A DNA stretch of 64,000 nucleotides, from positions 40,099,001-40,163,000 of the forward strand of contig NC_080560.1 of NCBI RefSeq assembly GCF_030253575.1, in the 5' to 3' direction. The DNA is from Rhododendron vialii (Eukaryota > Streptophyta > Magnoliopsida > Ericales > Ericaceae). The notes under the pieces were generated by a model. The model was not told the origin of the DNA, ran no database searches, and was given only the letters and a program-made list of their open reading frames with translations. A program made the position numbers and the translations under genes. This document shows positions 2,285 to 62,548 of the stretch, one piece after another (positions within the stretch are counted from its first letter, which is position 1; every line of letters starts with the position of its first letter).

Positions 2285-3110
2285 TCACACTCAAGCTACT
2301 TAAAATAAACTTGATATGACAAATATTTGAAACAATCAATCCAATCCTCCATCCACAAAATGATATAGTACTTGAATATCCCAAATTATATAGACGTAAG
2401 GAATTCCTGTTTGACAATATCAACCATCCGCAGCTCTTCTTCCTCCCACATTATCCCTCCTCATTTTTCGTTTTTTTTTTTACAAACAAAAATTTAATTT
2501 TAATTCTCATTCTATGTTGTTCTTTCTCTTTTCTCAAGAAGTCTTCCTCCTCCCAATCGTACGTCATATCGTCGTCGTCCTCCTCCCAATCCAAATTGCT
2601 GCTGCCACACAATGAGAGTGTATCGATGCAATGGTCACACCAACAACCACAACCACAATCGTAGACCAAATTCCATGAATCCACCCGTTCTACTCTCCAA
2701 TCATTTCCCCCACCATACGACTCAGGTGAAACCAAACTCTCCTCGTATGAAAATACATCTATGACAGACTTTTTGATCGAACTAGTAATATACTTTCGCG
2801 AATCCTCTAAGGGATTTTACACCAGTATCTTTTTTCCGTTCACTGCAATAAGAGCTTTGCCATTCTTTGTCAAGCACAATGGCACCAAACTTCCATATCC
2901 ATCAGGTCTGGACAATCCCTCGAAATGAGATATTACAAACAAACTAGTCCAGGATTCCTTCACGCTGTATTCCTTCATGATCAACACCTCGATATCTGGT
3001 TCATAGGCATAGTAATCATAACCACTTTAACAACGGATGTGGTGCGCCACACTTTCACCATGGCAGTAGCGTGCCACACAAAGGCATGCGTCTAAACACG
3101 ATTCTCAACA
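2285..3110 (-). pseudogene. Truncated F-box gene relic (3' half only)
   Basis: The minus strand here is a diverged copy of the 3' half and downstream sequence of the intact F-box gene at 6095-7708. Matching parts include the C-terminal SPESYGGGNDWR..W segment, the acidic tail ending in EEDFLRKEKEQHRMRI, the VLIMKEYG-like segment near 2980 and the CVAR(H)-like segment near 3070. Downstream non-coding sequence (about 2285-2450 against 5890-6060) is also shared, so the copy arose by DNA-level duplication. The F-box domain and the N-terminal half are absent and the frame is interrupted between 2735 and 3060. It cannot encode an SCF receptor and is best read as the dead partner of a local duplication. 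Confidence 0.8.
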
Positions 3111-5086
3111 CACTGCTAGGAACCGATTTTCATAACATGATTCTCGACACACTTCAACAACATCAGAGCCATTTGATGCATGAGAGCCCACATACGTGCT
3201 ACTACGAGGAGTTGTGTTCCCAAATTGTGCATGAAACTTTAACCTTCTCCTATCTTGATATCCATTATTGACCAAAAAAAAAAAACTTCTTCATGTACTA
3301 AAATTTTGGGTAGCTATGGCTCAACCGGACATTCCACAACGGGTAAAGAGCCCCCATGGTCATGCCCAGTAGGGCTGCTACACTGGTTGCCCCTCCCTCC
3401 TACCCTTTTTGGGGACAATCAACTTTTGCGGACAATCAAGTGTTTTGGAAGATCAAGGTCAATATTGGGGAGGACCACAACCAAGTATTCTGAAAACTTA
3501 AGGGTAGGGATGCGAAGGACAACAAAGTTTTACGGAAATGGTGAATGCAACGGATAATGGTGAAGAGTAGTTTACTTTTGTCTTTCTTCTTTTGTGAATG
3601 CAACGAATAATGGACAACAAAGTTTTACAGAAAAAATCATATTATCTCTCCCCTTTTGTGTCCTTGAAAGCTGTCCATATCATGCCTGTATTTGTGGTTA
3701 ACTTGTTGGTCTTGAAATGACCTTTTATGAGGTAGATGATTTGGAGATTTATGTTTCAAGTTTACTTCTTTGATGAGATACATTCTACTTTTGTTTATAA
3801 AATTGTGCCACTTTAGTTGTTGATGATGGGTTGTTCTTTTTTATTAATGGAAATGGACACATGCCTGGTAGAATTTCAAAACGAATCACAAAGGTAGGTT
3901 CTGGAAAAATTTCAGCAAAGTCTTCCCTGTTTTTGGTTCTAGCCCCGACGTCTTGTCTCAGTTAGTTCAACAATAACAACATGAACAACATGCACAAGCC
4001 CATGCCGGGCATTTTTCATTCTAAATCACCATTCACAAGCCACATTCATAGCCAAATTGCCAAATTATCCATTCCCAACAAAAACCATAAAATCATATAG
4101 TCCCACGTCGGGCTATTCTCATCACAATTATCAATTACATAAGAAGTTGGGTTTTGCAAAACTAAAAACTTGATGCTCCAACAAATTACAATTTGATAGT
4201 CCAGATTACAACAAATTGATCAATTTTCTTGGCCTTCAATTCATTTGAATAGCTTCAATCTCTTTCACTTCCTTTTCGAGTCTCCCCAATACCGCACCAA
4301 AAAGATTGGACTGATAGCAAAGGGATCAACTGCATTAGAATCTATTGGCTCAAATTTTGAAGAAGTTTCGTCAAGTTGCACCATCGGATCAGAGTCGCAA
4401 AAAAGATAAACCTTGGCCTGCGCGCACACATGGAGAGAACATAGTTAGAAATAAGCAATTGAGATTGATTCGACGATGCTAGATTTCGATCAATAGGGCA
4501 AATCAAAGTAAATTCTTGGCATGTTTGTATGTATTTGTATATGGTTGGTAATAAGCAGCTGAGAATGTTCTTGTAAGAAAATACAATGTTCTACATTTTA
4601 AGGTAGCCTTCTTCCGGACCCTCACTAATTCTTGAGAGAACAATCACAACAAAAGATACAGAACTGAGAAACAACCTTAGTTATGGAATTCCAAAGGTGG
4701 ATTGTCCCCAGTATCTCGAACCAGTGAATTTTCTCATATGTGTGTTACGTGGGGATTGGCATAGATCCAAAGAGGGCGACAGGGGTCATCGATTCAAAGA
4801 AGACATCCCTACTAGGTTGACACCTGCTATCAAAACTAATCATGTGCCCCCCAAGTACCAAACAAAGGAAGGTTGGCCTGAAGCCCACACCAAAGCTACA
4901 AGAAACAAGAACATTGGATGAAAAAACTAAACAGATTGGAAATTGGAGGAAATTATGTTCAAAAAAGATTTGGAGGAAATTAACAGATAGGAACAAGTTT
5001 GGAGGTTTAGGTGTCGTTTCGTTAAGAACAAAGCATGAACAGCTCAAGCAATACTTTGACAAGGAACTTCAAGTTACAATTCAGGG

Positions 5087-6094: not shown

Positions 6095-7708
6095 TCAAAG
6101 AGTTTTTGTTCTAATTCTCATTCTATGTCGTTGTTTCTCTTTTTTCAAGAAGTCTTCCTCCTTCCAATCATAATCGCCGTCCACCTCCCAATCATAATCA
6201 CCGTTCACCACCCAATCGTACATGTCGTCCCAATGGGAGGGGTCACAAGCACAACACGGACACCAATCGTATTTTTGTTGAGCCCGATCACTATCATCGT
6301 AGTAGACATAATTCCAAGCATCCACCGATTCTATTCTCCAATCATTTCCCCCACCACATGAATCTGGTGAAACCAAACTCTCCTCATACACAAATATATT
6401 TGCCGGACTGGTAATATGCCTTCCCGAATCCTCTGACGGATTGTAAAGCAATATTTGTTTTCCATTCACTGCAACAAGAACTTTTCCATTCTCTGTCAAG
6501 CACAATGGCACGAAACATCCAAATCTATAGGGTCCATGCCTATAAGGAGTTGACAATCCCCCAAAACGAGACATAACAAACAAACTAGTCCAAGATTCCT
6601 CCACGCCGTATTCCTTCATGATTAGCACCTCGATATCTGGTATATTATTATAGGCCTCATAATCACTCCAATAACCAAACTCATGATCACTCTCATAATC
6701 ACTTCCATAGTAACAGTAGCGTGCCACACAGTAACGTGCCACACAAAGGCATCCATCTAAAATCCCCAAACCCAATATGACATTTCTATCCCCATCATAA
6801 GATGGCGGGGTTGATAACTCTACAAACTCGTCTACCAACGGATCAAAACAAACAATTTGTTGGGCTGGAAATCGCGTACCATTTTCATCTCGATTGACCA
6901 CCCAGTGCAATCGCTCGTTCACTACTGGACCGGACTCCAGCTGGTAAGGGAAACAATAACTAGTCCAATGTTTGCTTTTCAAACTAGCAACGATGGCCAT
7001 TCCCGTGCAAGCATCGTAAGTGTCACAACGCTCGTAAGCCATTACTGCCTTGTACTCATCGGTTGACGAGTCATAACATAGACCACAGCCAGTCATAGGC
7101 CTCTCATACCGGACGTCCTTATCTAGCGGATCTCGCTGCGGAAGCGAAAGTACTTTGGTGCATTGCCTAACTGAAGGGTTCCACAGGTAAAAATCCAAGT
7201 CACGTCTATGTCTATTTACTGGGGAAAAATAATCCATGTCACGTCTAATAAGCAACAAACCCCTACAAGAACCTAAGATTTCGAACCGTGGCATTTCTAC
7301 CTCCTCGGTGCCACCTATTTCCTTCTTCCTCATCGGATATTGAAGCTCTACCATCGAAACTTTACCGAATTCAGAGTGTAAGTTCAAATCGTATAAGCCC
7401 TTACCGTATCTGATGGCGATTTTCCGGTTTTGAAACGAAAGAGCCAAACAGGGATCGGAGATGGAGTCACGCCACGGTTTGCAAACGCATCGGAACCGGA
7501 GTAGAGATTGGATGGGTAGACGAGAGAGGATTTCGGTTACGAGATCTGGTGGGATATTTGGCAGCTGGTATTCGGGAAGAGAATTGAGATATGAGAAATG
7601 GGGTGAGGTGGGGAAAGACGGCGGCCGTCGGCCGGATCGCTTGGCAGTACTTTTGAGAGCACTGAGGTAGGAGGAGTAAGATTTGTCCATCCGCAGCGTG
7701 AAATCCAT
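6095..7708 (-). CDS. F-box protein with F-box-associated (FBA type 1) domain
   Basis: Proteins of this family are substrate receptors of SCF ubiquitin ligases: the F-box binds SKP1 and the C-terminal FBA/kelch-like domain binds the target. From the start chosen here the protein has 537 residues. The F-box is at about residues 50-89 (IPPDLVTEILSRLP, then LLRFRCVCKPWRDSISD). The FBA region follows, with typical GSCRGLLL, WNPSVRQ and CGLCYDSSTDEYKAV segments. The C-terminal 70 residues are unusual: rich in Asp, Tyr and Trp with repeated YDWEVDGD-like units, ending in a basic KKEKQRHRMRIRTK tail. The frame is open 16 codons further upstream to 7756, but a TATA-like box at 7778-7787 puts that first ATG near the expected transcription start, so the ATG at 7708 (MDFTLRMDK) is preferred. 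MDKSYSS at 7690 is also possible. No intron is needed. The target is unknown. Confidence 0.88.
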   Translation of the reverse strand: MDFTLRMDKSYSSYLSALKSTAKRSGRRPPSFPTSPHFSYLNSLPEYQLPNIPPDLVTEILSRLPIQSLLRFRCVCKPWRDSISDPCLALSFQNRKIAIRYGKGLYDLNLHSEFGKVSMVELQYPMRKKEIGGTEEVEMPRFEILGSCRGLLLIRRDMDYFSPVNRHRRDLDFYLWNPSVRQCTKVLSLPQRDPLDKDVRYERPMTGCGLCYDSSTDEYKAVMAYERCDTYDACTGMAIVASLKSKHWTSYCFPYQLESGPVVNERLHWVVNRDENGTRFPAQQIVCFDPLVDEFVELSTPPSYDGDRNVILGLGILDGCLCVARYCVARYCYYGSDYESDHEFGYWSDYEAYNNIPDIEVLIMKEYGVEESWTSLFVMSRFGGLSTPYRHGPYRFGCFVPLCLTENGKVLVAVNGKQILLYNPSEDSGRHITSPANIFVYEESLVSPDSCGGGNDWRIESVDAWNYVYYDDSDRAQQKYDWCPCCACDPSHWDDMYDWVVNGDYDWEVDGDYDWKEEDFLKKEKQRHRMRIRTKTL

Positions 7709-7777
7709 CGCACCAAATATGATCCAAAATTTTAGGTTTCTATTCGTTTCCCACACTTCGAGAGACTAGAATGAACC

Positions 7778-16090: not shown

Positions 16091-17131
16091 CCGTTGTGTT
16101 GGGAAAAAAATATCATAGTAACTCTAATCTGCTACATGTTCATATACCCAACTGCAAAATTCTCTACATTGATCTTCACTCTGTGTTCTGTAATGGACCC
16201 GATCTGCTAACATACCACTTAGCCATTCTTTTAATTAGGGTCAAAACCATAAGTTCCAAATGATGTGATTCTTTAGAAGAAATGGGTTTGTTTTCTTCCT
16301 AAAAATGGGTCTCACTGATCACTCTAATTTTTTGGAATAATGATTTAGATGTATAGTGCTAAAAATGACCGAATTGAATTGTCAAAATATATTGTGGGAC
16401 CTCACATTGTTGGGGAAGTGTGTTTGAAAGATGTACGCGAAATAGTGTATACGCAGCAAAACTTGAGGTAAAATAAAAATATTACTCCTAGAAAATGTCA
16501 GAAGTGTAAATATGTGTACGTGTAAGTGTATTGAAGATTTGAATTTTGAGGTATTTTGTAGTTCTTTATCAGTTTACAAATATTCTACGAACACACTTTT
16601 CAAACACACCACCCAATGTGGTATTTCACAATGGATTTTAACAATATGGACAGTTCATTTTGTAGCTCTAAACTTGTAAATCAATCAAGCAATATATATA
16701 TTGATGCGATCGGGATAAGTACGTGTCCGATTCTATTTTATTAAGCGGTAGAATTTAACAATTTAATTATTTTTCTCAAGGAAAATGTAAAATTTTGAGA
16801 TTGATACCAATGTCGGATAAACCAAATTCTTTGCAAGGCTAATGTTAATTATGTCGAGATATACAAAATAAACAATTTGAAAACCAAATAAGCGTGAACC
16901 ATAGACGGTTAGTGCAGCTTTTTGAAAAATGTTAAAAGGAGTAATTCATAACATGTGAGTCTGGTCTTTATTCCCGCGCATAACTCATACTATATTAAAC
17001 TATATATATACACACAGTTGCATTCAAACTCTATGATCATCATCATTCTCTCTCTTGAAGAGCCAAGGCAATCTGCTGCTCCGTCTCTGCTCGTCACAGC
17101 ATTCTCTCTCTCCTCACTCCACTTTCTCCTG

Positions 17132-17134
<3 letters not shown>
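16091..17134. other. Intergenic to possible leader region
   Basis: Nothing coding was found between 16091 and about 16950. From about 17000 the sequence becomes CT-rich and leader-like and may belong to the 5' untranslated region of the peptidase gene that starts at 18707. Confidence 0.35.

Positions 17135-17177
<43 letters not shown>
17135..17177 (+). repeat. CT microsatellite
   Basis: About 21 CT units. It sits in a CT-rich stretch upstream of the cysteine-peptidase gene and may be in its 5' leader. Confidence 0.9.
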
Positions 17178-17178
<1 letters not shown>

Positions 17179-18191
17179 AATGCGCAAAGTTTTCCGAGTA
17201 GGAGTACGAAATTTATCTGAAATTGACATGAATTTCATTAGCTTCTCTTTATCCGCATTTGAGATTCACTCTGGTAATGATCTGAATTACAATAGATCTG
17301 ATTAGAATTCTTCGTACATTGAGCTGCTCTGTGTGTGTGTTCCTCTCTATCCGTATTTCACATTTTACCGGAAAATTGTGCTGAATTTGATAGGATATCA
17401 TTTTCTTGCATCAATTAGCTGAAATTGAGTTGCTGCTTTTTCTGTGTAATTTAAGTTCGAATACGAAAAGCATTTGAATTCTCCCGATCTCGCTATCTGT
17501 ATTTCAATTTTAATCATGAAATCAAAACCGAATTCAGAAGGATTAGTATTCTTTGTACATCAATTAGCTGAGATTTCTTAGATAGCTTGGATTCAACTTC
17601 TCTCTGTTTGTGTTGTATGTACATATAGGCACTTCTATGGATCTTATTTCCTGTGAAAATGTGAGTGAACTACAAATAACATTTAAAATTAGGTTGAGTT
17701 TCGTAAGCTTCTGATCAAAAACAGTATATCAAATATAATCTGGAAATCAGGCGGCATTTGATAGGATTAGAATTCTTCGTGCATAAATGAGTAGAGGTTT
17801 GTTGGATTGAGTTGCTCTATATGAGTGTGTTCTACATTCAAATAGGTGCTTCTACATGCACGCTCAACTCTTAAGCTAAATACGGATATCGTTTCAATTT
17901 CGCAACCTTAAACTAGATCTGGAAATCGAGTCAAATTTAACAGCATTTTTATAATTTGGTAGATTAATGAGCAAAAGATGTTAGCGATTGAAGTACTTCT
18001 GATTGTAAATTCATAATACTATCTGGATCGTACGCCAAAAATGTCCGGTTGTTTTTAGAGGCTCTAACTATTTGGCGCCAAAATGTCTCTGCTAGAAGCT
18101 GTATCCCACCAATTCATGGAGATGCTTGGAGATGAATTTTGTCTGTCTCCATTCCCTGTTTTCTTTCTCCGTGGATTTGACCGAATTGCTA

Positions 18192-18431
18192 GGCCCCGTT
18201 TCGGAACTCAAAATAAGTACTTATTTTTTAAGAAGACAATTTCAAGCTCAAAAATAATGTATTTACGCAAATAATTTTCTTACCAATATGGATCTTGTTA
18301 AATAGATCTTATCGAGATCTATTATACGGTGCAAAAAAAAATCAAAAAATTATTTTTCATTTACATTATTTTTTAGTTTGAAAATATGAAATAAGTACTT
18401 ATTTTTTAAGAAGGTGTTCTGGAACGGAGCC
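18192..18431. mobile_element. Foldback MITE, superfamily unclear
   Basis: The left end GGCCCCGTTTCGGAACTC and the inverted right end GGCTCCGTTCCAGAACAC are imperfect partners. An AATAAGTACTTATTTTTTAAG block follows in both arms. Total length is 240 bp. The flanks resemble each other only loosely, so the target duplication and superfamily stay undecided. It lies about 275 bp upstream of the peptidase start codon. Confidence 0.6.
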
Positions 18432-18706
18432 AATTCATTTATTTCATTCATGGTTTTTGTTGAATTAGACTTGGAGGCCTAGAGGGGGCCTTCTTTAGCA
18501 ATTCGTGCTCGGAGGCTTCTTTTATTCCATTTATTGTTTTTGTCAATTCATTGTCTTCATGAATTAGACTTGCTGAGACGGATGGAAGAATTTTAATTGC
18601 TCTTTTTTATCTACTTTTTGTGAAAGTTTAATTGAACTATTGTTCATGATTTTCCCTGGAAAGTTCTCTAAAACACACTCACTCTCTCTCTCTCTATCTC
18701 TCGCAG

Positions 18707-21700
18707 ATGGCATTGCTATTAAGAAAATTCAACAGATTTGTTCCCTCTGTTATGAGTGTCCGCGGCAGTATCAGGCGGAGTTCCGTTCTCAGGTATGAAT
18801 TTTTGCCGTACGTCCATCGTACATCCATTAGTCGGGGTTTTTCTCTATCTGCTTCCATGCAAGTTTGTTTGTGTTTGCAAAGGATTTCTAAAAGCCAGAA
18901 ATTTGTGAATGTTACGTTTCCAACTTAGGAATTTAGTCTGTTACAGAAAATAGGATTTTAATGGTGTGCCGAGTGGGCACCACGTGGGATATACCCACCC
19001 AGCAACGAAAAATTTCTCCTAAATAGAAGTATCAATGAAGTAATTTCTCCATTTGAGTGAACATTTTAGTTATGCTATGTTCAAGCCCAGCTTGCATAAA
19101 GCCTCTGTAATGGCTTAAGAACCTATGGTTTGACTTATGATAGACTCTTGCACCTTGTGACTTTATGGAACGAAATTAGGGAACGGGGTATTATCTAGTA
19201 TCAAATTGTATCAATTGATGCGTCGCTGTGCTCTACCATTTAATATTCTCCTTCCCATGATTTTTGAATACCGAAAAACTAGTCCATGGGTTGGGATTAA
19301 TTTACCCCTCCCTCCACTGTTAAGCAATTCCCCCAATAGAATAATAAAGGGTATTATAAGAGAACAAGAAAATCTTATTTGCGGAGCTTTCCGTGAAGCA
19401 AAGGCTTTACGGAGCCCTATCGGGCGCGTCCAAGGTATTTTTGACGGTCCCGATTGATTGAAAAGCAATCTTAACTATTGATTGTCAAAATATATAGATA
19501 TATAAGCGCATTTGTTTAACTTTTCGTCCAATTTTGATTTGTCCAGTGAGCAGTCTTACTCGTTTGGAGATTGGATGAAGAACTCTCCTCCAACAAGCTG
19601 GGAGCGGAGTCTTTCGACGGGTACCATAAACCATGTATGTATATTTGCTTAATTGAACTATTGTAAATTCCATGAGATAGGCCCAACTACTTTTATTTCT
19701 GGACCTGTTTTAAACTTCAGGATCGTCTGAAATTGCAGGGCAATCGAAGGACTGCATTTCCTTCATCTTTTGACTGGAGAGAGAGAGGCCTCATCACCAA
19801 CATTAAGGATCAGGGAAATTCACGTAAGAAAAAATAATAATAATAATAATACTATGCACACAACAATTTAAACACAACTTTTCAGATACACGTAGGACCT
19901 ACACATATAATAGTATGTGTATGAGGCCCACACATGTAAGTGAGAAGTTGTGTGAGTATTATTTAAAAAAAAAAAAAGAGAAGGGACTAATGGGTTTGGA
20001 CTTATTTTTTTGTTTTTATTTGAATTTTTTTTGTATTCATTTATTTTACATCAAATTTTTGTAATCTATTGATTTATCTCGACCAAAGGAATCGAAAAAG
20101 TAAATTTTTTTAATGAAAACTCATAATTTTTTGAATAAAGATAAAAATAAGTCAATAAGAATTTTTTTTTTACCTATTCTTTTTTTTTAAAATTATGAGT
20201 TTCGATCAAATTTTTTTATTTTTCCGATTCCTTTCATTGAGACAAATCAATAAATCACAAAAATTTAATACAAAATTAACAAATGCGAAAAAATTTGTAT
20301 AAAAAAAACTTACTACTATTTGTTTTTTAAAGCCAAATGAATCTGTTGATTTCAAGTTTTTTTAAATTTCTTTTTTTATTGTCAGCGACGTGTTATGCTC
20401 ATGTGGCGGTCACTACAGTTGAATATGCGCATCAGATACTCACCAAGGAAGTCGTCCGTCTGTCCCCTCAAGAATTGTGGGATGCAGGGGCTACGGACGA
20501 CGACGACGACGGTCCATTACCATTGGGGGAAGGGGGGCGATCATTTAAGTGTTTGAAGTGGATCGCAAAGAATGGTATTTCGCTCGAGGCAGACTACCCC
20601 TGGGAGGGCGTGAGGGGCCCGTGGAGGAATCAGGTAATTTCTCTACCTTTTAATCTTAGATTTGTCTGTGAAAAACCCTGACTTGCCTAAGTTTATAGAT
20701 TTGCTATGGATAATCTCTTCAATCAATATATCAATCCAATCCCACAACGAAAAACAATAAATAGAAGAACTCTAGATATACGATTACAAATATTCTTGCT
20801 CAATGATTGTGTATGCTCACCACGAGTCCAAGAACTATTTGCGGAATCCAGTGGCGTAGCCCGAATTTGGTGTTACTGGGGGCACAATCCCAACACATGC
20901 AACTTGGTGTTGAAAAACAAAAATCTATCTTCGTTCTAAGAATTTGAAGATACACCTAATTTGATTTTTTTTGAACTATTTCTTCAAGATATTTGTTAAA
21001 AATCGTATTCAACTATCACATTATCTTGGAGTAGCAATTAAATTTTTTTATAGTTCTAAATGAATCATCTTCTACATAAAAATCTAGGGAGGAGTTGTTG
21101 ATAGATTTAAGAAGAGAAAGAAGGGATAACGTGAAATGGAGAAACTTTTAGGTATACCGGGGATACCAAGCCTCATGGTATCCCTTTCGGTCCGTTTCTC
21201 ATTTTTCGGCCATTTTCCGATCACATTTGGATGATTGACTTCGTTCATTTTGTAGAGTTCGGCAAAGACCATAATCATACCAATAATTGTGTTCATCGGA
21301 CTTTATTTGATACATGATCGGCACACGTGAAAATTAAAGAAAACCAAAACTGAGTCCAAAAACACACTGAATCAAAACCCAGTTTTAATTTTTTTGCGAT
21401 TTTCACATGTTTTCCGATCATGTATCAAATAAAGTCCAATGAACACAATTTTTTGAGAGATTAAGGTCCTCGCCGAACTATACAAAGTGAATGGAGCCGA
21501 ACATCCAAATGTGATTGGAAAATGGCCAGAAAATGAGAAATGGACCGGAAGGGATACCATGAGGCTTGGTATCCCCAGTATACCTAAAAGTTTCTCCGTG
21601 GAATGGAGCCTTGCTTGACTTGCATTTAATGATGAGATAGTAATTGTAGTTCCGTCAACACATGGTAGTTTCTAAAGTTTAGTAAATGGAGGTTTGCTTG

Positions 21701-24700
21701 GTAGTAAATTATTTGGTGGTCCTGGAGCGCACTATCACATGGTGCCCCAGCACTTTCTCTATTACATATTTACGCAAGATTCATACAATAAGTCTCGAGC
21801 CTTACATGAATACGTGGTGAAGAAGGGGAACATGTAACGATGTCTTTGAAGCCGCTCAATAACTTTCCAGTGTTTTGAGGTACCAGGTTTCTAGTGAGAT
21901 ATCAACTTATAATTTTCTACCTAAGATTATCATTTACAGGTGTTTTAAAATTAAAAAAAAAAATTATCCAGTGGGGGCACGGTCCACTGGTCTCAAGCTC
22001 CCTCCGCCCTGGCCGAATGTCACCGAATCCTGAATCCTTAAGCCTTCGAAAATCCTTTCGAACTCCACAAAAGAATGTCGCACAAATGTTGAATATGTTG
22101 AAGTAGGAAAAAGAAAAGCCACTCAATACAATACACATTGATTCTATTCCACTCCTAAAACAGACACTCTAAAAAATAATACTCCCTCCGTCCCAAATTG
22201 TTTGTCCGGTCCGCAAAACGATAACTTAAAAATAATGCAATTTTTTTAAGAAAAAATTTAATTTTTTTTCACAAATTAAAAGAACTCATTGATATCTAGT
22301 AAGTTGTTAAAAAACTTTTGAATTTTTCTAGCAAAAATTGTATTATTTTTAAAATTTCGTTTTGCGGAGCGGACAAACATTTTGGGACAGAGGGAGTAAA
22401 AATAAAGTAGAACTTGATACAATAGAATCCGATAACGGTGTTTTTTGGCATGAAATTTCCAACATAGAGTGAACTCGGCCTTTGTAGCTAACAATCTCCC
22501 CCTTTGGCACTTCCATGACTAAACACAATTACAAGATAACTTATCCCCTAACAGAATGTGCCGCCCACTTCCTGTAAAGCTGCGAAACAAGAACACTAAC
22601 ACGCACAAACTGTTATAACCAATAAACCTCTACCCTTTTTGTCACGGAATGACAAAGGTTGAGGTAGTGTCCAATAGAAGGGGGAAAAATGAGCATTTTA
22701 AGCAGGGATAGCCAATATTAAGAGTAGTATAAACAAAACAATTCTGTCACTATGACTAACATCCCAAAAACAGCTAGAACAGACGAGGACATACCAAACA
22801 CAACTACTAGCAAAATAATAAACCAATAAAGCAAAATAACATAGGGCACGCCGGGACTGAAAAATCACGTAAAATGGACCATAAAGGCAATAAAAAATGT
22901 AGCACACCAAAAAGAGGTTGAAGTTTAAGAAGCAAGAGGACATGAATATGAACAAGGATAACAGTAAACGTACAAACATCCTCTTTAATCACACATCATG
23001 GATACATTGTGAACCAAGTTAAGTATGGGACAAGACGCTATGACATAGGGGTGTGTGTGCGACACGTCAAAGGCCATCGAGATTATCATATACAAGCCTA
23101 GATTTCTCCTGTAACCATAGACTGTCAAAAAGTCTCCCCCTCGTGAAGTCAAACCGCGTAATCAACGATACGAATTGCATCCTAAAAAAATATACTAACT
23201 CCCCCTCAACCAATTTACTCCTTAATAGATAGTTTTTATGAACCGTGACTAATATATTCACTTTTACCCCACTGCTGTTTGACGCGAACATTCAGCTTGG
23301 ACAGAGCCGAATGGATCCGGTTACTCAGTGGACGCTCGAATAAACATTTCATCTCAACCACAACAAATGTATATTTTTCTTTTTGATTCTTTTGCATAGC
23401 CTTAGCCGACCCCAATTGATTGGGACATAAGGCTCGCTTTAGTTTGGTATTCTTTTGCATAGCCTGATGTATAAAACACCGTATCCCACATCAAATTGCT
23501 AAATGGTCAATCGCCGAGGGAGTACAAAAGACAAATTAGCAAGGGTACATGAGAAGTAACAAGCCTCAATATTCAATCTTTCTAACTTTAACGTGTAGTT
23601 GTGGAGATCACATAGTCATGAGCCATGTGACACCTATCTCCCAAATGCATCACACGAGCCAAAATCAAACAAGATGTGCATGCATTAAAAACACCCATAT
23701 CTCAAGGCATGCACCATGTAAAAAAAATTATTTATTTATTTAGTTTGAAGGATTTGAAAATATTTGAATGTTTTTAAATTTTCATTTGAGCAAACAAAAA
23801 AACAATGAAAATTCATAGAAAAATAAAAGCATATGTGACAAAGTAAGAAAAGCACAAATCTAAATAAATCACTTAACCCATAGCCCTAGGTACAATATAA
23901 TCAATGTGGACCAACCTAGACTATGGACCCAAGACCAAGCCTCAGAAGGCAAGGTCGATTCCTTTAGATGATCCCATGTGACCTTGTCATCTAGAGAGTT
24001 GGTAGATAAATCCGCTCGATGTCTCAAGTCCGACTTCCTCACCCAAATAGGTCTTGTTTTAACTTGAACTACTTTACTCAGTTTGGCAGACATAGGTTTT
24101 GGTGTCATGCTCCTAGCTGTCATGTTTCTAGTGTTATCATATTTAGTGTACCTAGCCCAAGATTTTTTAATATGTCCACGTTAAGTGTTCTAAAAGGCGG
24201 CCGCCTAGGCCGATTAGTCCCCACCTAGGCGCTAGGCGGTGGTCTGACGCCCAGATTAGACAGTTGGTGCCTTGGCACCCCTTTTCTGCCCGACTAGCAC
24301 CTAGCAATTTTTAGAACACACATTTAGAACAACTTTATTGTGAATGACATTGCCTAGCAAAAAAAAAAAAAATTGTAAACGACATTATTACGGTTGACAT
24401 GATCACAAGCAATAAGAGAATATCCGTGTAATTGGAGACACTTTGGTCTAATGTCGCCCTTGAAATTACAGTAGTGACATGTAGGAACAAACTTAACCAC
24501 ATTAGCTTTCTTGATATCAATAGGCTTCTTAGCAACGTTTATAATTTTAGATTTAGAGCATCTCCAACTGGCTCTCTACTTGAGACCTTTTGGCTATACT
24601 AGCTACCGAAAATTCATTTTGAGTGATCCAAGCGGCTCTTTACTTCACTAGCCTCTTTGCCTTTTATAATTTTCACTAGCTACTTGTAGCTAGAGAAGGG

Positions 24701-26721
24701 GACTCTCTCCTTTACTTTCTCTCTCATAATATTTTCATTTTTGCCACTCAATTGTATAGGAGATGTTCAAAAAAAAATTAGTGTTTATTTGGATCGAGAG
24801 TAGGGTTGGAATACATGGATGAAAAAGTGAATAGGCAAAATAAATATTGTACTTTTTTGTGTACTTTTTGCTAGATAAACTGATAAAGTAAAGAGTAGGG
24901 TTGGAGATGCTCTTAGACTTATAAATAAAAGGGTTGGAGATGCTCTTAGAACTTACATCTTTAGTGTTTCACCATATGCACTTTACCTCCAAGATGATTT
25001 GACGTTGAAGCTTCATGAAATCCTAGTCGACCTTTGAACATCAAGAATGTAACATCAAGAATGTCGTCTAACTTCTTGGAACCTGCATTTAAATGCTCAA
25101 AAATATCATTAGCATTTTTCAGTTCAGTGGATAATTGTTTCATTTTACCTTCATTAACCACGAGTTGCTCTTCAAGCTTTCTAACTTTCTCTTGAAGCTT
25201 TACCATATCTTGTTTGAGTTGATCTCTTTTTTGAGTGGCGCATCTCTTTTTTGAGTGGCACAATCTAGTTTTTCTGATAGCTCCCTTGCTGTGGATAAAG
25301 CTTGGGTCAAATCAACAACAATTGCGTCATTCTGAGTTGCTTGCTTGATGTTCTGCTTGGTGAGTTTTAGGCTTTCTTGATACAACTTGTCATAAGCCTC
25401 CTTTAACTTATCAAAATCCACGATCTCTCTTCAAATCACTATCAGACATCTCACTTTCCTCATGTTTCGCTGTGAAAGCTAAGAAGTTCTTCGGTTCTTC
25501 CCATTATTCTCATCCCTGTCACTACCCGACTTGCCACTATCTGAATCATCATCTCATGTCTTCACATTGTAAACTTTTTGTTTCATCCTTTTATTAGCAC
25601 AATCTTGAGCAAGATGCCCGTAACCATGACACTCGTAGTGCTTAGGCCAGGAGGCCAGAGGGTGGTCCTTTTACTCCTTTTCGCTCTTTCCCATTAGGAG
25701 ATTCAAATTTTCTTTATTCTTTTTAGTGTTGACGATGTGGTTGAGTTTTGCATAGAACTCGTCAAAGGTCTCATCCTCCTCCATACGAAGCATTTCAAAC
25801 TGGATTGTGACTCTTTGTTACTTCCCTTGCTTCACCGTTTCTGTCCCTTTGTGTGTTGTAACCAAAATATCTCGTGCCTCCTTTGTTAGTTTAGATGTCG
25901 AAATCCAATGAAACTTCTTTGTGTGAACGTACGTGAACAATACATTTAATGCCTGACTATTAGCTGCTCTCTCAATTTTTCAAGCTCCTGAGTAGTTTGC
26001 AGTTGTGCACTAAGTTTTGGAATGGCGACTTCATCTATTGTTTCAGTTGGAGGTATGTATTTTACCTCACATGCATTCCAAACATCCTCATCGATGGCCT
26101 TTAAAAAGGCCTCCATTTTTGCCTTCCAATGGTCAAAATTTCTTCCATCAAATATCAGAGGACGATTAGAACTCAATTCCGTAGCAAATAAAGGATCCGC
26201 TTAAAAACCCAATGATTCCAATAAAAGTGAAGTCGAACTTGATACAATGGAATCTGATAACGGATTGTTTTGGCATGAAATTGACAACATAGAGTAAACT
26301 TGGCCTTTGGAGCTAACAATCTACTTAGGGTATAAATCTAATCCTAATACATTTAATTTCCTCTTGATTTGAACAGAGTTCTAGAAGACTTACCATTGAT
26401 GGCCACATGAGCTTACCTATCAAAGCAGACTACGGCCTTTACGCTCAAATTCTTGAGCGGCCTGTTTCAATTACTATTGCTGTCACCGATGAGTTCGAGG
26501 ATTATGAGGGTGGAATCTATTGGAGTAGTTTTGCTTCTACCTCTACAGACCACGAGGTTGTGGTTCTTGGATGGGATGCTGAAATGGATGGGACCAGACA
26601 TTGGATATGTCAAAATTCATGGGGCGAGGGATTTGGCGAAGGAGGTTTTGTGCGGATCGCGAGGACTGGGCATTCATGGTGGGGTTCTCGTTCGATCATG
26701 AGTGCTCCATGCTATAAATAG
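18707..26721 (+). CDS. Papain-like (C1A) cysteine peptidase without propeptide, five exons
   Basis: Proposed exons: 18707-18792, 19547-19634, 19739-19823, 20386-20633 and 26377-26721. All use GT-AG borders, phases agree, and the product has 283 residues. Papain landmarks are present: FDWRERG..IKDQGNS with oxyanion Gln83, catalytic Cys89 in PTCYAH, His228 in DHEVVVLGW and Asn249 in CQNSWGEGFGEGGFVRI. Cys-His-Asn spacing is close to that of papain. The usual GSCWAF is altered, with Tyr for the Trp after Cys, and the GCNGG disulfide motif is lost. There is no inhibitory I29 propeptide (ERFNIN). The N-terminus is short, basic and Ser/Arg-rich (MALLLRKFNRF, RGSIRRSSVLR), which resembles a mitochondrial or plastid presequence. 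ATG follows a pyrimidine-rich CTCTCGCAG, so a 5'-UTR intron is likely. Exon 3 could also start at 19721, adding six residues in frame. Intron 4 is 5.7 kb and full of transposons. An expressed divergent peptidase and a recently silenced gene both fit. Confidence 0.72.
20037..20277. repeat. AT-rich foldback in intron 3 of the peptidase gene
   Basis: The arms at about 20037-20128 and 20189-20277 are imperfect inverted copies; both contain the CAATAAATC/GATTTATTG-type and GGAATCG/CGATTCC segments. It looks like an old MITE. No target duplication could be defined. Confidence 0.5.
21139..21596. mobile_element. Mutator-type foldback MITE
   Basis: This 458-bp element begins GAGAAACTTTTAGGTATACC and ends with the inverted copy. 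The arms stay complementary for well over 150 bp, with GGGATACCAAGCCTCATGG near both ends. The flanks CGTGAAATG (21130-21138) and CGTGGAATG (21597-21605) match at eight of nine positions, as expected of a 9-bp Mutator target duplication. It lies in intron 4 of the peptidase gene. Confidence 0.85.
22182..22396. mobile_element. Stowaway-type MITE
   Basis: A 215-bp element starting CTCCCTCCGTCCCAAATTG and ending with an inverted GACAGAGGGAG, flanked by TA. It shares its internal GTCCGCAAAACG-like block and both arms with the element at 62105-62315, so both are the same family. Confidence 0.88.
23402..23450 (+). repeat. Short dispersed repeat, LINE/SINE 3'-end-like
   Basis: Second copy of the motif first seen at 8049; here AGCCGACCCCAATTGATTGG is the best-preserved version. 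Confidence 0.45.
24185..24319. mobile_element. Small MITE with GTGTTCTAAAA ends
   Basis: GTGTTCTAAAAG at the left and TTTTTAGAACAC at the right are inverted. The interior is rich in CCTAGGCGCTAGGCGG-type sequence. A similar interior recurs at about 29905-30040. Flanks do not give a convincing duplication; hAT affinity is a guess. It is inserted in the Copia fossil. Confidence 0.5.
24556..24912. mobile_element. Tourist-type MITE (PIF/Harbinger)
   Basis: Ends are GAGCATCTCCAAC and its inverse GTTGGAGATGCTC, flanked by TTA on both sides, fitting the TWA target of PIF/Harbinger elements. The right end is tandemly repeated once, so a second copy of the terminus occurs at 24931-24945. A related element lies at 58946-59232. 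Confidence 0.8.
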
Positions 26722-36051: not shown

Positions 36052-38295
36052 ATGGATTCAACAATCATGTTTCTTTGTAAGTATGGGTTGCAGATTCTTC
36101 CGGTGAGGTTATCGGGTGGTGGTAGGTTGAAGGATGTCTTAAGCAGTATTCGTAATAGGTGGGAAAATCTGTCTGTTGGTGGGTTTTCTGTTTCATATGC
36201 CTATGAGGATGGATATTATGCTCTTCATAATGAATCTGATTTTGAGAACATGCTTTTCTTGTTTAGTAATTGTGATCGCATAAACGCAAAGGTTGATGAG
36301 AATAAACATAGTACCAGGTTATGAGGTGGTTGATGATGAGTTAGAATATGTGGATAGAATGGACCCCGCGGAAAAGTATTGTAAACGTGCTGAGCCTAGG
36401 TATTTGACTGAAGCTTGGGCTCATTTGATAGAGGGTGTTGGACAGGAATTTCCCTTAGGTGTGAAGGAGTTCAGGCAGGATCAGGCTAAATTTGCGATTG
36501 AGAATGGATTTATGTACCGTTTGGTGAAAAATGACAATATTAGGGTGACAGCTGTTTGTGTTATTGTAGGGTGTGGATGGTACGTGTATGCTATTTTAAA
36601 TAGAACCAATTGAGTATTTCATATTACAAAGTGTCATAATGAGCATAATTGTGGTTCAACGTACCGAACCAATAAGCATAAGCGTGTGTCATCCCGTTTG
36701 GTTGCGAATGAGATAGCTGGGATTGTTGAGAAGAAACCCAAGACTTCACCTATCGACATGATGGATATGTTTACGGACAAGTATGGTCTTGATCTGTGCT
36801 ATCATAGTGCTTGGTTAGGTGTTGAAAAGGCAAGAGGGGATTATATGGAGATTATGAAGGTTCATTCGATAGGCTTCGGTGGTACGTTGAAGCTGCAAGG
36901 GCTATGAATCCGGGGAGCGTTTTGAGGCTTGAATCTGATCCTGTAACCAAGGAGTTTTCGCGACTGTTTGTGTCGTTTGACGCTTGTATCAAGGGATTCA
37001 ACTACTGTCGGCCTTTTTTGTGTCTTGATGCAACCCATCTGAAAGGTAGATTCAAAGGATCACTCCTTGCCGCAACAGGGAAAGATGCAAATCAATGTAT
37101 GTTTGTGTTGGTTCTTTATATGTTTACCTTATATATTAGATTTCATTTGTATAGTTTTGAATATGTAACATTGTATGTTTTATTATGCGAAGCTACACAT
37201 GACAAAAGTTTGCATAGGATGTAATATTTTATCATTCATGTGCAGGTCTATTCCCTGTAGCTTCTGCAATTTGTGATGCTGAAAATGAAGCTAATTGGAC
37301 TTGGTTTCTTGGCCTTCTAAAGAGTACAATGTCCACTCGTCCTATTACCTTTATTACTGATCGTAATGCAGGTCTTGTCAACAACATTTCTGTTATGTTC
37401 CCCGGTTGTCATCATGCATACTGTCTCTATCACATACAGTTCAACTTGAAGGATCACTTTCCGGGACGGTTTAGAAAAGGTTTTCGGAACAGGCTCGTTG
37501 AATTGTTCAACAAATGTGCATATGCTTCATCGGTGTCGGTTTACAAAGCTGCTGAGGAAGATTTTTACCAATTTGGTGGAGATAAAGCTAGGACCTTTAT
37601 TGCGAGTATCCCCAAAGAGCATTGGAGTAACGCGTATTTCAAAGGTCAACGGTATGGTGAGATGAGCTCTAGTGCTCTGGAGTCGTTTAATAATTGGATT
37701 CTTAAAGCTCGGGAAATGCCTATATTTTATTTAGTTGATGAGCTTCGTCGCAAAATTATGAGGCAAATGGCTGCAAGGAGAGTAAAGTCGATGAAATGGA
37801 ATTCAGTGATTTGTCCGAAGATGGATAAGAAGTTAGCTCACTTTATCAAGAAAGGAAGGTCGTGGAGGATCATTATGTCAAAGGGTGGTTTGTACGAGGT
37901 ACGCTGTCGTATCTGTTGAGGAAAGGACCTGCTCTTGTGGTAATTGGCAATCTACCGGTTTCATGTGTAGGCATGCTGCAACGGTTATTATAAAAGCTTC
38001 TGGAGGGGAAGGAAATTTGGTGGACCATATGGATCCGTTATACCTTGTTGATGCGTATCGGCGTATATATGAAGAACCCATATATCCAGTTGTAGAGAGT
38101 GACATTCCCGATTTTACGAAAGAAGGTGACCGGGTTATAAACCCTCCACGGAATAGGCGGCCAGCGGGTAGGCCCAAAGTTAAACGCATTCGTTCAAGGG
38201 GTGAAGAGTCATATACCAGACCTAATAAATGTGGGAGGTGCCACAAGGCCACAAAGTACAATCGAAGAACATGCAAAGAGCCAAGCGATATATGA
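36052..38295 (+). pseudogene. MULE transposase, frameshifted
   Basis: Domains in order: a PB1-like start (MDSTIMFLCKYGLQILPVRL), a MuDR zinc-binding-like region (FRQDQAKFAIENGFMYRLVK), the MULE DDE core with LDATHLKGRFKGSLL, FITDRNAGLVNNISVMFPGC and YCLYHIQFNLKDHF, and a SWIM finger (CSCGNWQSTGFMCRHA) followed by a basic GRPKVKRIRSRG and a CGRCHKATKYNRRTC knuckle. An intron at 37097-37245 (GT-AG) joins DANQC to LFPVASAICDAENEANWTWF. Damage: frame changes near 36290, near 36870-36885 and near 37905, and an in-frame TGA at 36611-36613. The function in intact relatives is cut-and-paste transposition. The core is well preserved, so inactivation looks fairly recent. Confidence 0.88.
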
Positions 38296-40892: not shown

Positions 40893-40944
40893 TTTTGGAC
40901 CAGACAGATATCTATCGTGGGACTGAGGTAGTACTAGTACTAGG

Positions 40945-40952
40945 TATATATC
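40945..40952 (+). promoter_or_regulatory. Probable TATA box of the MORF gene
   Basis: TATATATC lies 50 bp upstream of the ATG at 40995, leaving room for a leader of roughly 20 bases containing CTCCTCTCTCAGC. Confidence 0.5.
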
Positions 40953-40994
40953 GGCGAAAAGCTCCTCTCTCAGCTAGGGCTCCGGCGATCCCAA

Positions 40995-42912
40995 ATGGCG
41001 GCTCGTTATCTGCTTATCAAAGCTGGAAAATTGACCCTTTCTTCTTCTCATCCCCTCCTCGCTGTTAAACGTACTTCTTCTCTCTCTACTTCTTCTCTCC
41101 TTCGCCCATTGATTCCCGCATCCTCCTCCGCCGACATCCCCTGCTTCTCCCTGGCGGCAGAAACTGTTGCTCGGCCGTCTCTCAGCCCTGATCATGATCC
41201 CCGTCGCATGGAATTCCCTGATAGGTCAGATTTCGAGCTCTGGCGAGCTAATGGGTTAGATTTCGAGCACTGGCAAGTTTGTCTCGGGGGGTTTGACAGC
41301 GGGATTACCAGAGGTGAGATCGTTGATACCTGCGTCGGAAAAGCGGTTACCAGAGATGACATCATTGATACCTACGTCAAAACCCTTGCTATGGTCGTCG
41401 GAAGGTTAAGTTCTTCCCCCCCTTTTTTTTTTGTTGTTATGAGTAAATATCGAAGTATTTATTATTTTTTTTTTTCAGAATTCCAAATCTTTTTTTTTTT
41501 GGGTATGAAGTTATATATTCATTCTCCTCTCGAAACACCCACCCACACCCCCCCCCCCCCCCCCCCCCCCCCCCAATTTTGTTGTGATTCAAATATGGGC
41601 AAACTGCAAAGTCATGCCATTTACTAGATTTCACTACTTATTAGTGGTGAAATATAGTCATCTGGAACAAACTTGTTGATAGCCTTTGAACGTATATAGT
41701 TTAAGCAACAACTTGCCTTGATTTCCTAGTAACCTTTTGTTGGTTTTTATTATGGTTAATTATGTTTCCAGTGAGGAAGAAGCGAGAATGAAAATCTATT
41801 CAGTTTGGACAAGAATGTTTTTAGCGTTTGGAGTCCTCGCAAGTGAAGAACTTGCAGACAAAATAAAAGGCATGTCAGGCAATTGCTTCTTGGTTTTTGC
41901 CCTTACTCTTCAACATAAAAGTTGTTAGCATTACTCTTCCGTATAAAAGTTCTAAGCATTTGTTGTATGTAATCTTTACAGAATTGCCTAGAGTCATACT
42001 TGTGACCCCTGATTCTTACATGTTTCCTGAGACCAAGGACTATGGAGGTATGAAATATTGTACTGTCATATTTGTGTCCTGTATTTGATGTCATTGCGTT
42101 GTTTTAACATAGCAAATGTTTGAGGTTTTTCCCGCGCTGATCTCAGTGGCATAACAAGGAATATGCGTCAATGGGGCACTATAAAGAAAAAATTCACTCA
42201 ATGGCATGGGAGGCGGTGGTAAAAAGGAAGAATATTAATTGAACATGTAACCTTGGCAGAAGGGAATTGCAAAAAAAGATTCATCTAGCTGGCCCCAATA
42301 GATTGAGCCATTGAGGCATTAGACTTAGCTTGGTATTGTAAGAAATAATCAGACAGCGATTGTACAACATTGCTTTCGAACGTACCACCACCACCATTTT
42401 CATTAACAGTGATCTTATCCCCCGCCTTTTAGTATTTCATTTACTTATCTTTGGTGTTTGAGACCAAACAAATCAAGTAATTTTGAAAAGGTTCTTAAAA
42501 GAACATTATCTTATCTAAATGTGCCGTGTATCTTTACACGGCACTTATATTCTGTTTTCGTGGAGACTGGAGGTGTCCTGTATTTATAGTCATTGTGTTG
42601 TGTTAGCATAGGAAAATGCTTGATTTTTTTTTCCTTAGCTGATCTTGTGAATTGTATTTGCTTGTTTACTATATCTTGTATTCTTTGCAAATTGTGTGAG
42701 TGTGTGACTTTAGTGTTGTATTGATTGTGGTGGCAGGGGAACCTTTCATCAATGGACAGGCCCTACCGTTTGACACTAAATATTATCTCCCGTTTAGTCA
42801 ACGAAGTCGGCCCCGATACAAGAAATCAAGAAACCTTGAAGTGCCTCCTAATAGCACAAAAGGAATGCAGTCGGAGGGGAACAAAGTGGAACAGGATGAA
42901 GCGGAAAGTTGA
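40995..42912 (+). CDS. Multiple organellar RNA editing factor (MORF/RIP) family protein
   Basis: Proposed exons: 40995-41404, 41772-41869, 41982-42047 and 42737-42912; the product has 249 residues. MORF proteins act in C-to-U RNA editing in plastids and mitochondria by binding PPR editing factors and each other. The MORF box is clear: LDFEHWQV, TRDDIIDTYVKTLAMVVG, SEEEARMKIYSVWTRMFLAFGVL, KIKELPRVILVTPDSY, KDYGGEPFINGQALPFDTKY. The first 60 residues are Ser/Arg/Leu-rich and poor in acid, as expected of an organelle transit peptide. Introns 1 and 3 are GT-AG. Intron 2 (41870-41981) appears to use a GC donor (AAAAG/GCATGT), because only this restores the conserved K-I-K-E-L. Exon 1 carries an internal near-duplication, TRGEIVDTCVGKAV followed by TRDDIIDTYVKTLA, not usual in the family. 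The C-terminal tail is basic then acidic and diverged. An expressed divergent paralogue is likeliest; a young pseudogene is possible. Confidence 0.85.
41548..41574 (+). repeat. 27-base cytosine homopolymer in MORF intron 1
   Basis: An uninterrupted C run preceded by CACCCACCCACA, able to form i-motif or G-quadruplex structures on the two strands. Its exact length should be trusted little. Confidence 0.9.
42285..42338 (+). repeat. Degenerate short dispersed repeat in MORF intron 3
   Basis: TAGCTGGCCCCAATAGATTG followed by an AGGC..TTAGCTTGGT tail, a weak third copy of the 8049 motif. Confidence 0.35.
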
Positions 42913-44854: not shown

Positions 44855-48298
<3,444 letters not shown>

Positions 48299-53677: not shown

Positions 53678-54050
53678 AGTGCTGCTCTTTTTCTTTTCAT
53701 CTCCGCCTCTCCCACGTGCTACACTCTTCTAAGAGTGCAATTTTATTTACACTCCTTAAAAGATGGTGAACATTATCCTCTCTCTCATTGGTTCAAATGG
53801 CATGGATCCTACCATAAAGTGATGTCATATTTACCATGCAATACACTTTTTGGTAAGCATGACATCATTTTCTGGTAGATACCACATTATTTTAACCAAT
53901 AGGAAAAAAGATAATGTTCACGTGGAAGGTAAACAAAACTCAACTGCTCTCTAACCCCTGCACCATTTAAACAACCCAAAACAAAATATCACAAACCCGG
54001 GTGATCAAAAAAAAAATCACAAGCCCTAATCAACCAATCACTCAACAACC

Positions 54051-55265
54051 ATGGAGGAAGATTCCGATTACTCCCGACAACCTTCCCTTCCCGACGCAAT
54101 TCTCCTCGACATCCTCTCCCGCCTCCCCGTCAAATCCCTCCACCGCTTCAAATCTGTCTCCACCCAATTCCGCCACTGGATCTCCGCCGACCCCCACTTC
54201 CTTAAACTCCACGCCCTCCACTCCGCCGACACGCGCCACCGCCGCAGGCGCCGCGTGGCCGTCCTCGTGTCCCGCAAGCCCCCCGCCTCCGTCGCCCTCC
54301 GCTCCGTCGACGCCGACACCCTCTCCGACCCCTCCGTCGTCGAGCTCTGCAACGACTTCAAGTACTCGTACCCGTCCGCGAGGATATGGAATTCCTGCAA
54401 CGGGTTGGTGTTGATTTCCATTTCGGACAAGACTTTCTTTGTCTGGAACCCGTCTACTAGAGAAAAAGAACACGTGCGTTCTATTCCCACCTTCTCTCTT
54501 CGCGCGTCTACTAGGTACTGTCTTTTAGGGCTTGGTTTTGATAAGATTACCGATGCGTATAAGGTGATCGCGGCTTACCAGACAGATGACACTGGTGATA
54601 GCTGTTTCATGTCGTGCTCATCATTGGATGGCACGAGGGTTAGTAGTAATAAACAGAGGGTACGGAGGATTGGTGATTTTCCTTATAGGATTTGTAAGGA
54701 TATGCCGGGGAGTAATGTGGGTGGAGATCTTTTCTGGATGGTGGTTGGAAAGACGGGTGATCCAGCGATTATTGGTTTCGATTTTGGAGCAGAGGAGTTT
54801 GTTGAGATGACCCAACTGCGTTGGGAACCGGGTGTTTTGAAGTACGGGTTGGGGGTTTTGGGGGGATCGCTTTGCGTGGCTTGCCATGGAGAAGGCAGTG
54901 TTGAGGTGTTGGGGTTGAAGAAGGGTGGCGCGGTGGAGTCGTGGGAGAAGTTGTTTGTGGTTCCTTACAACGCGGGGGATCTGCAGTTTAAGACGTTGAC
55001 ACCGTTGTGTTTCACGGGAGATGGTGAGGTGATGATGGAGATCGATAGGAAGAGATTAGTGGTGTATAATATTGAAGAGAAAACGTGTAGGTTGTTGTCC
55101 TATCTTCCTCACGAGGACAAAGAAGAACTTCGGGAGATAACGCGAAGTGGGCAGGGTTTGAGGTTGAATGGAAGTGGGTTCAAAGTAGTGGTGTATGTTG
55201 AGAGTCTAGTCTCACCGAGTAGTTCCTCTAAGTCAATCCAGAATCTTTTGTCAACGGGTAAGTGA
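54051..55265 (+). CDS. F-box protein with FBA-type domain
   Basis: The 404-residue protein has an F-box at about residues 11-50 (LPDAILLDILSRLPVKSLHR, then FKSVSTQFRHWISADPHFL) and an FBA region at about 100-390. The latter has IWNSCNGLVLIS, FVWNPSTREKEHV, LGLGFDKITDAYKVIAAY, VLGGSLCVACHGE, VESWEKLFVVPYN and VVVYVESLVSP. This is the CPR1/At3g06240-like class of SCF receptor; the target is unknown. The ATG has a good context (ACAACCATGG). The first third is very C- and G-rich compared with the flanks. The last codons, ACG GGT AAG TGA, overlap a consensus donor G/GTAAGT, so the transcript may splice just before the stop into downstream exons and give an alternative C-terminus. Its relatives lie at 62549, 49852 and 6095. 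Confidence 0.92.
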   Translation: MEEDSDYSRQPSLPDAILLDILSRLPVKSLHRFKSVSTQFRHWISADPHFLKLHALHSADTRHRRRRRVAVLVSRKPPASVALRSVDADTLSDPSVVELCNDFKYSYPSARIWNSCNGLVLISISDKTFFVWNPSTREKEHVRSIPTFSLRASTRYCLLGLGFDKITDAYKVIAAYQTDDTGDSCFMSCSSLDGTRVSSNKQRVRRIGDFPYRICKDMPGSNVGGDLFWMVVGKTGDPAIIGFDFGAEEFVEMTQLRWEPGVLKYGLGVLGGSLCVACHGEGSVEVLGLKKGGAVESWEKLFVVPYNAGDLQFKTLTPLCFTGDGEVMMEIDRKRLVVYNIEEKTCRLLSYLPHEDKEELREITRSGQGLRLNGSGFKVVVYVESLVSPSSSSKSIQNLLSTGK

Positions 55266-62537: not shown

Positions 62538-62548
62538 ACTGACTGGAA

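Follow-up and report, generated by a model that had tools for sequence, protein, structure and literature searches.

A putative papain-like peptidase gene of Rhododendron vialii that keeps the catalytic residues of papain, has none of its disulfide cysteines and shows no detectable propeptide

Plant papain-like cysteine proteases (PLCPs) are described as pre-pro-proteases in the passages available from studies of the family in several species (PMC5762910, PMC8556938, PMC7659060, PMC8193581). In those same passages, one grapevine PLCP has a Peptidase_C1 domain and no I29 domain (PMC8556938), and several fig PLCPs have no signal peptide or propeptide, with assembly quality and possible pseudogenes named as causes (PMC8193581). 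Two castor bean and four physic nut sequences were set aside as pseudogenes (PMC5762910), and 9 of 106 soybean members were excluded as putative pseudogenes because of their length and a lost C1 domain (PMC7659060). For organelles, the passages of one article state that, in Arabidopsis as in other plants, intensive efforts to find cysteine proteases located in the chloroplast have failed save for a recent case, barley HvPAP14, and that none with a chloroplast-targeting sequence has been identified, yet a cystatin placed in the chloroplast alters protein turnover there (PMC8256631). Outside plants, a truncated human cathepsin B without the signal peptide and part of the propeptide is described as going to mitochondria (PMC1087480). 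No gene for a propeptide-less or organelle-targeted plant papain-like enzyme appeared among the open-licence titles and beginnings of abstracts listed, nor is such a member mentioned in the passages from the papaya, Nicotiana benthamiana and cotton surveys. Here we describe a putative C1A peptidase gene on the plus strand, at positions 18707 to 26721, of a 64-kb stretch of Rhododendron vialii DNA (contig NC_080560.1, positions 40,099,001 to 40,163,000), referred to below as the window.

An initial annotation, made from the letters of the window, had proposed five phase-compatible exons, and this model holds: the exons join to 852 nucleotides, that is, 283 codons followed by TAG, with exon start phases of 0, 2, 0, 1 and 0 and GT..AG borders on all four introns (Table 1). 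The product matches Peptidase_C1 (PF00112) over most of its length, with an E value of 2.4e-39 at residues 66 to 269 (profile positions 2 to 208 of 220; 136.1 bits versus a cut-off of 20.7), far better than its match to Peptidase_C1_2 (PF03051), presumably the C1B, bleomycin hydrolase type, which has an E value of 0.037 and lies below the cut-off. Alignment to papain places Q83, C89, H228 and N249 opposite Q19, C25, H159 and N175, so that all four catalytic residues are kept and stand in papain order, as had been claimed. The same alignment bears out two further claims, that Tyr replaces the Trp after the catalytic Cys (Tyr90 at the position of papain Trp26) and that the disulfide of the GCNGG motif is gone (Gly134 at the position of Cys63). 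Among 161 distinct matches, the closest solved relatives are all plant enzymes, with the cysteine endopeptidase 1s4v as the best (E value, 1e-34), followed by EP-B 2 (2.1e-31), ervatamin C (1.6e-29) and triticain alpha (2.3e-29). Papain residues Y67, P68, V133, V157, A160 and S205, which we take to line the S2 pocket, align with R138, S139, T202, T226, E229 and A279, and a pocket as polar and acidic as this would favour polar or basic P2 residues. The KDEL-type C-terminal tail of the CEP subfamily is absent, the protein ending in SAPCYK.

What is new here is the replacement of every cysteine that takes part in a papain disulfide, six in total, in a protein that retains the four catalytic residues. 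These three disulfides are a defining trait of the usual plant PLCPs. In an alignment of the Rhododendron protein with papain, 1s4v, 2fo5, 1o0e and 8zlq, papain Cys 22, 56, 63, 95, 153 and 200 correspond to Ser, Ala, Gly, Trp, Ala and Arg, respectively, and the only cysteines of the protein are Cys89, Cys142, Cys247 and Cys281. When the columns that are invariant among the five references are considered, 41 of the 70 non-Cys columns are kept (29 changed) and none of the five Cys columns is; Cys200 is uncounted, because too few rows cover its column, and Cys25 is not invariant, since 8zlq has Ala there. At the loss rate of the other invariant columns, the chance of keeping none of the five is about 0.01 (29/70 to the fifth power). 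A larger alignment of 86 rows pairs Cys63, Cys153 and Cys200 with Leu, Phe and Ser instead, and still none is Cys. A protein whose folding has moved out of the endoplasmic reticulum would be expected to look like this, with the three bridges all gone and the catalytic set intact.

The two other features of the usual plant PLCPs, an I29/ERFNIN propeptide and a secretory signal peptide, had been reported missing, and neither was detected in our searches. An I29 profile built from eight I29 stretches found no propeptide in 2,797 six-frame pieces of the window, the best E value being 2.7. As a control, whole seeds left out of the profile scored 1.8e-11 or better, and of 16 left-out half domains, used as proxies for single exons, 15 reached 4.1e-6 or better and the remaining one 0.2; this control is lenient in that several seeds are close kin (papain and caricain, for example), and a propeptide as diverged as the gene itself would score lower. 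A profile of five mature domains recovered the three mature exons of the gene from the window at 3.7e-18, 7.6e-10 and 7.9e-4, with nothing else below 6.4, and the divergence of the gene is therefore within reach of such a profile. With the papain pre-propeptide as query, no tblastn match in the window had an E value below 2.1, and when the region from 16952 to 26718 was examined with Pfam in the form of 10 open stretches of the plus strand, three of them contained Peptidase_C1 and all other matches were below the curated cut-offs, with no I29. By hydropathy, the sole measure applied to the signal peptide core, the highest mean over eight residues in the first 40 residues of the five-exon product is 1.76, versus 3.4 for the papain signal peptide.

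The initial annotation had itself named a missed upstream exon encoding I29 as the finding that would speak against it; within the window no such exon was found by tblastn, Pfam or profile, and a 5' exon joined at the CAG before ATG 18707 could still exist. Such upstream exons might encode a signal peptide together with a strongly diverged propeptide, and the product would then be an odd but secreted zymogen. A possible 5' exon is suggested by a CT-rich tract that ends in CAG, resembles a 3' splice site and lies directly before ATG 18707, together with a TATA-like stretch near 17000 and a (CT)21.5 array at 17135 to 17177. We nevertheless consider a missed pre-pro region very unlikely, given that no I29 piece was found, that the papain disulfides are all lost, that residues 1 to 64 would need to sit between the propeptide and the mature domain, and that a stop just short of 18650 interrupts the reading frame 5' of ATG 18707. 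Downstream of the array lie an ATG, at 17180, and a GT, at 17274, that could serve as a donor, and the segment from 17135 to 17275 is perhaps a 5' exon of the peptidase gene or part of a separate transcript.

Splice sites and the open frame alone support exons 1 and 2. Between 15.5 and 19.5 kb, only three exons running from an ATG to a donor, with at least 7 of 9 consensus matches demanded of the donor, can be joined directly and in frame to exon 2, and two of the three are the same exon 1 starting at Met1 or at Met16. Exon 1 is thus a nearly forced choice if exon 2 joins an initial exon directly, with a donor as good as the four in use.

The genome contigs gave no match when searched with the protein alone, whereas a search with an alignment (A1) gave 426 matching stretches, 316 of them encoding a relative, and the best 80 of these form our prokaryotic set; these relatives were picked by DWR and NSWG patterns, and counts among them are not frequencies in nature. 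Viral contigs gave nothing with alignment A1 and a single locus with the protein, L001, positions 3001 to 3210 of which encode a stretch 35% identical to residues 197 to 263. In the window itself, tblastn with the protein returned the exons of this gene only (next best E value, 0.73), with no sign of a tandem family. A midpoint-rooted tree of 86 rows (the Rhododendron protein, 5 plant enzymes and 80 prokaryotic C1A sequences) groups the protein with the five plant enzymes and exactly three I29-bearing prokaryotic rows, L002, L012 and L029 (support, 100/98), while its position inside this plant-containing branch is weak (80/26). Of the eight other members of the branch, I29 was seen in five (L002, L012, L029, papain and triticain alpha) and is presumably present in the remaining three (1s4v, 2fo5 and 1o0e), and because the other members bear I29, its absence here is probably a loss from an I29-bearing ancestor. 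That I29-bearing C1A genes in three prokaryotic records group with plant enzymes would be explained by transfer from eukaryotes or by contaminated assemblies. A prokaryotic origin of the Rhododendron gene was considered and is disfavoured on thin margins, the highest identity being 35% to a plant enzyme versus 33% to the prokaryotic L019 (itself above the 32% to papain) and the tree placing the protein with plants.

Within the prokaryotic set, the catalytic Gln, Cys, His and Asn are kept in 79 of 80 sequences, I29 (E value up to 0.01) is found in 3 and not in the other 77, and none of the six disulfide cysteines is present in three (L037, L071 and L078, all with the catalytic four intact). The residue after the catalytic Cys is Trp in 40 of the 80 and Tyr in one, L078. 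These patterns indicate that Tyr90 and a missing I29 are compatible with an intact catalytic set.

We tentatively favour, with a probability of about 0.46, the explanation that the gene encodes a divergent plant C1A peptidase that has left the secretory route, has been re-addressed to a reducing compartment and is controlled without a zymogen. An I29-bearing ancestor would have shed the pre-pro part and acquired a pair of short 5' exons. Synthesis would take place in the cytosol, and residues 1 to about 24 to 29 might act as a presequence that directs the protein to mitochondria (or plastids); otherwise it would stay cytosolic. Where conditions are reducing and near-neutral, disulfides would not form and their loss would carry little cost, and activity could be held in check by location, pH, cystatins or the narrow specificity of a polar pocket in place of a zymogen. 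The N-terminus is suggestive in this regard. Residues 1 to 29 contain no acids and six Arg or Lys, while the remaining protein has 13% acids (Fisher P values, 0.03 for acids and 0.10 for bases), and the helical moment, which comes to 0.56, 0.84 and 0.85 for spans of 18, 12 and 11 residues, is higher than in five comparison N-termini (a MORF-like frame and three F-box proteins of the window and the papain signal peptide). These properties fit a mitochondrial presequence without establishing one. The earlier proposal of a divergent, non-secretory, organelle-directed peptidase thus stands where it concerns a divergent protein without I29 that does not look secretory, a part now strengthened by the loss of three disulfides, while the organelle-like N-terminus on which the rest of it depended is suggestive at most, its statistics being weak.

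A number of observations weigh against the re-addressed peptidase. The helical moments are equalled by 14%, 5% and 6% of 5,000 shuffles, respectively, a weak result for a presequence, and the lowest moment belongs to the MORF-like frame, the sole organelle-type control and only weakly matched to its own family, which means that the measure does not separate the controls. With a Met39 in frame in exon 2 and an exon 1 that has neither homology nor a coding score, these weak statistics also suit a cytosolic or nuclear peptidase that has no targeting peptide and either starts at Met39 or carries exon 1 as an uncleaved N-terminus. We regard this alternative, which overlaps with the favoured explanation insofar as the compartment is left open there, as unlikely, because exon 1 is free of acids, has a high helical moment and has almost no competitor as an initial exon to be joined directly to exon 2. 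Of the three prokaryotic relatives that have none of the disulfide cysteines, two, L037 and L071, begin with hydrophobic, export-like stretches, so that disulfide loss alone is no proof of a reducing compartment. In the castor bean and physic nut families, a signal peptide is reported in every kept member (26 and 23, respectively), with no counterpart of the present gene in the passages available (PMC5762910), and the propeptide is described as indispensable for the folding of cathepsin B into a typical active enzyme (PMC1087480).

The remaining points against the re-addressed peptidase concern whether the gene is alive. Its end branch is the longest in the tree, at 1.66 versus a median of 0.26, and fits relaxed selection as well as new selection. 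A codon score, with six long open frames from the window as its training set, singles out the frame in use only in exons 4 and 5 (12.3 and 12.6, the best there), and not in exons 1 to 3: exon 2 scores 2.7 and another of its frames 3.0, and exons 1 and 3 score -0.3 and -1.2, with other frames reaching 0.8 and -0.8. Exon 3 is supported by homology despite its low score, which means that the codon score has little power at about 87 nucleotides; 95% of 936 open non-coding stretches of 87 nucleotides from intron 4 score below 2.3, a value that exon 2 exceeds. The coding case is carried by exons 4 and 5 together with homology. This raises the possibility of a pseudo-enzyme or decaying duplicate, a papain-type copy that would have lost its pre-pro part and drifted, and that either is not expressed or yields a product unable to fold without the propeptide. 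The long branch, the 29 changes at the 70 invariant non-Cys columns and the missing coding signal in exons 1 to 3 are in line with decay, as are the fig members whose missing signal peptides and propeptides are ascribed to assembly quality or possible pseudogenes (PMC8193581) and the share of putative pseudogenes in soybean (PMC7659060), both as given in the passages available. We judge decay to be somewhat unlikely in view of the 283 codons without a stop or frameshift, which at the stop frequency of the window would stay open by chance with a probability of about 1e-7 if unselected, the four of four catalytic residues and the canonical splice borders. Most of the divergence must have arisen in a translated gene under coding constraint; a recent death of the gene still fits. 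The putative product may be a pseudo-enzyme, or the gene may have decayed recently.

A more far-reaching form of the favoured explanation, that this is a plant C1A subfamily which is conserved and distinct from the nine already named, now an organelle peptidase with a two-exon targeting segment in place of the pre-pro region, disulfides shed for a reducing matrix, a polar pocket and no zymogen control, seems to us quite unlikely. Were it true, the gene would be a candidate for the organelle cysteine protease activity that has no assigned targeted gene product. The intact catalytic set combined with none of papain's disulfide cysteines makes the locus a specific candidate for a plant C1A enzyme outside the secretory route; the interest of the locus hinges on conservation in the lineage and on the destination of the protein.

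The features of the gene are collected in Table 1. The introns contain further elements: intron 3 has an inverted repeat at 20013 to 20306 (arms of 129 nucleotides, 75%), and intron 4 has inverted-repeat elements at 21138 to 21597 and 22180 to 22398, the latter with CTCCCTCCGTCCC near its end, two copies of a 101-nucleotide repeat, at 22397 and 26222, and, on the minus strand, an open frame carrying DUF4219 at 25949 to 26200 (E value, 2e-6), taken as transposon remains. Elsewhere in the window, F-box domains occur in three long open frames (6098 to 7765, minus strand; 54030 to 55262 and 62543 to 63643, plus strand), a MULE transposase domain of the Mutator type lies at 37218 to 37916 on the plus strand (7.4e-11), the MORF-like frame (organellar RNA editing factor) at 40944 to 41624 on the plus strand has a weak match of 0.0017, below the Pfam cut-off, and an ABC transporter piece lies at 46176 to 46820 on the minus strand (ABC_membrane, 7.2e-12; ABC_tran just below the cut-off). 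The frame at 47331 to 48071 on the minus strand has no Pfam match at 0.01, and no Rfam families or tRNA genes were found in the window.

Table 1. Features of the putative peptidase gene, in window positions
Feature	Position	Strand	Content	Basis
CT-rich tract	18680..18706	+	Ends in CAG immediately 5' of the ATG; 5' untranslated region, or perhaps a 3' splice site to which an exon further upstream is joined	Sequence reading
Exon 1	18707..18792	+	Residues 1-28 plus a portion of codon 29; N-terminus rich in Arg and Ser and free of acids, a putative organelle presequence; Met16 as an alternative start	Splice model only, without homology or coding score
Exon 2	19547..19634	+	Through residue 58; linker, no detectable I29/ERFNIN; alternative start Met39	Without homology support
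Exon 3	19739..19823	+	Residues 59-86; start of mature papain domain (FPSSFDWR..), oxyanion-hole Gln83	Open stretch alone, E value 7.9e-4
Exon 4	20386..20633	+	Residues 87-169; catalytic Cys89 then Tyr90, left domain, Asp-rich insert	Open stretch alone, E value 3e-7
Intron 4	20634..26376	+	5.7 kb, contains transposon remains	
Exon 5	26377..26721	+	Residues 170-283 and stop; right domain, His228, Asn249, Trp251	Open stretch alone, E value 1.1e-19

Among known systems, the nearest is the CEP/EP-B type, represented by 1s4v, which we take to be a CEP, and EP-B 2 (2fo5), with which the Rhododendron protein shares the mature fold, the catalytic Gln, Cys, His and Asn, the DHxV and NSWG motifs and the highest identity found, 35%. 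It differs from that type in having no signal core or I29 that could be found, no papain disulfide cysteine, Tyr for Trp26, Glu after the catalytic His and no KDEL. The prokaryotic L078, L037 and L071 likewise have no I29 that could be found, none of the six disulfide cysteines and an intact catalytic set, L078 also having Tyr after the Cys, but they fall outside the branch of the Rhododendron and plant proteins, and L037 and L071 look exported. The human cathepsin B form CB(-2,3)/delta51CB keeps its disulfide cysteines. According to the passages available, this form resembles the present protein as a C1A enzyme that has no signal peptide and an incomplete propeptide and whose N-terminal signal leads to mitochondria, and differs from it as a splice form of an ordinary lysosomal gene that is supposedly devoid of typical activity (PMC1087480). 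The grapevine and fig PLCPs, compared by their descriptions, share with it a plant C1 domain without I29 (PMC8556938, PMC8193581), and barley HvPAP14, in the passages that mention it, is a plant C1A peptidase reported in the chloroplast thylakoid lumen (PMC8256631).

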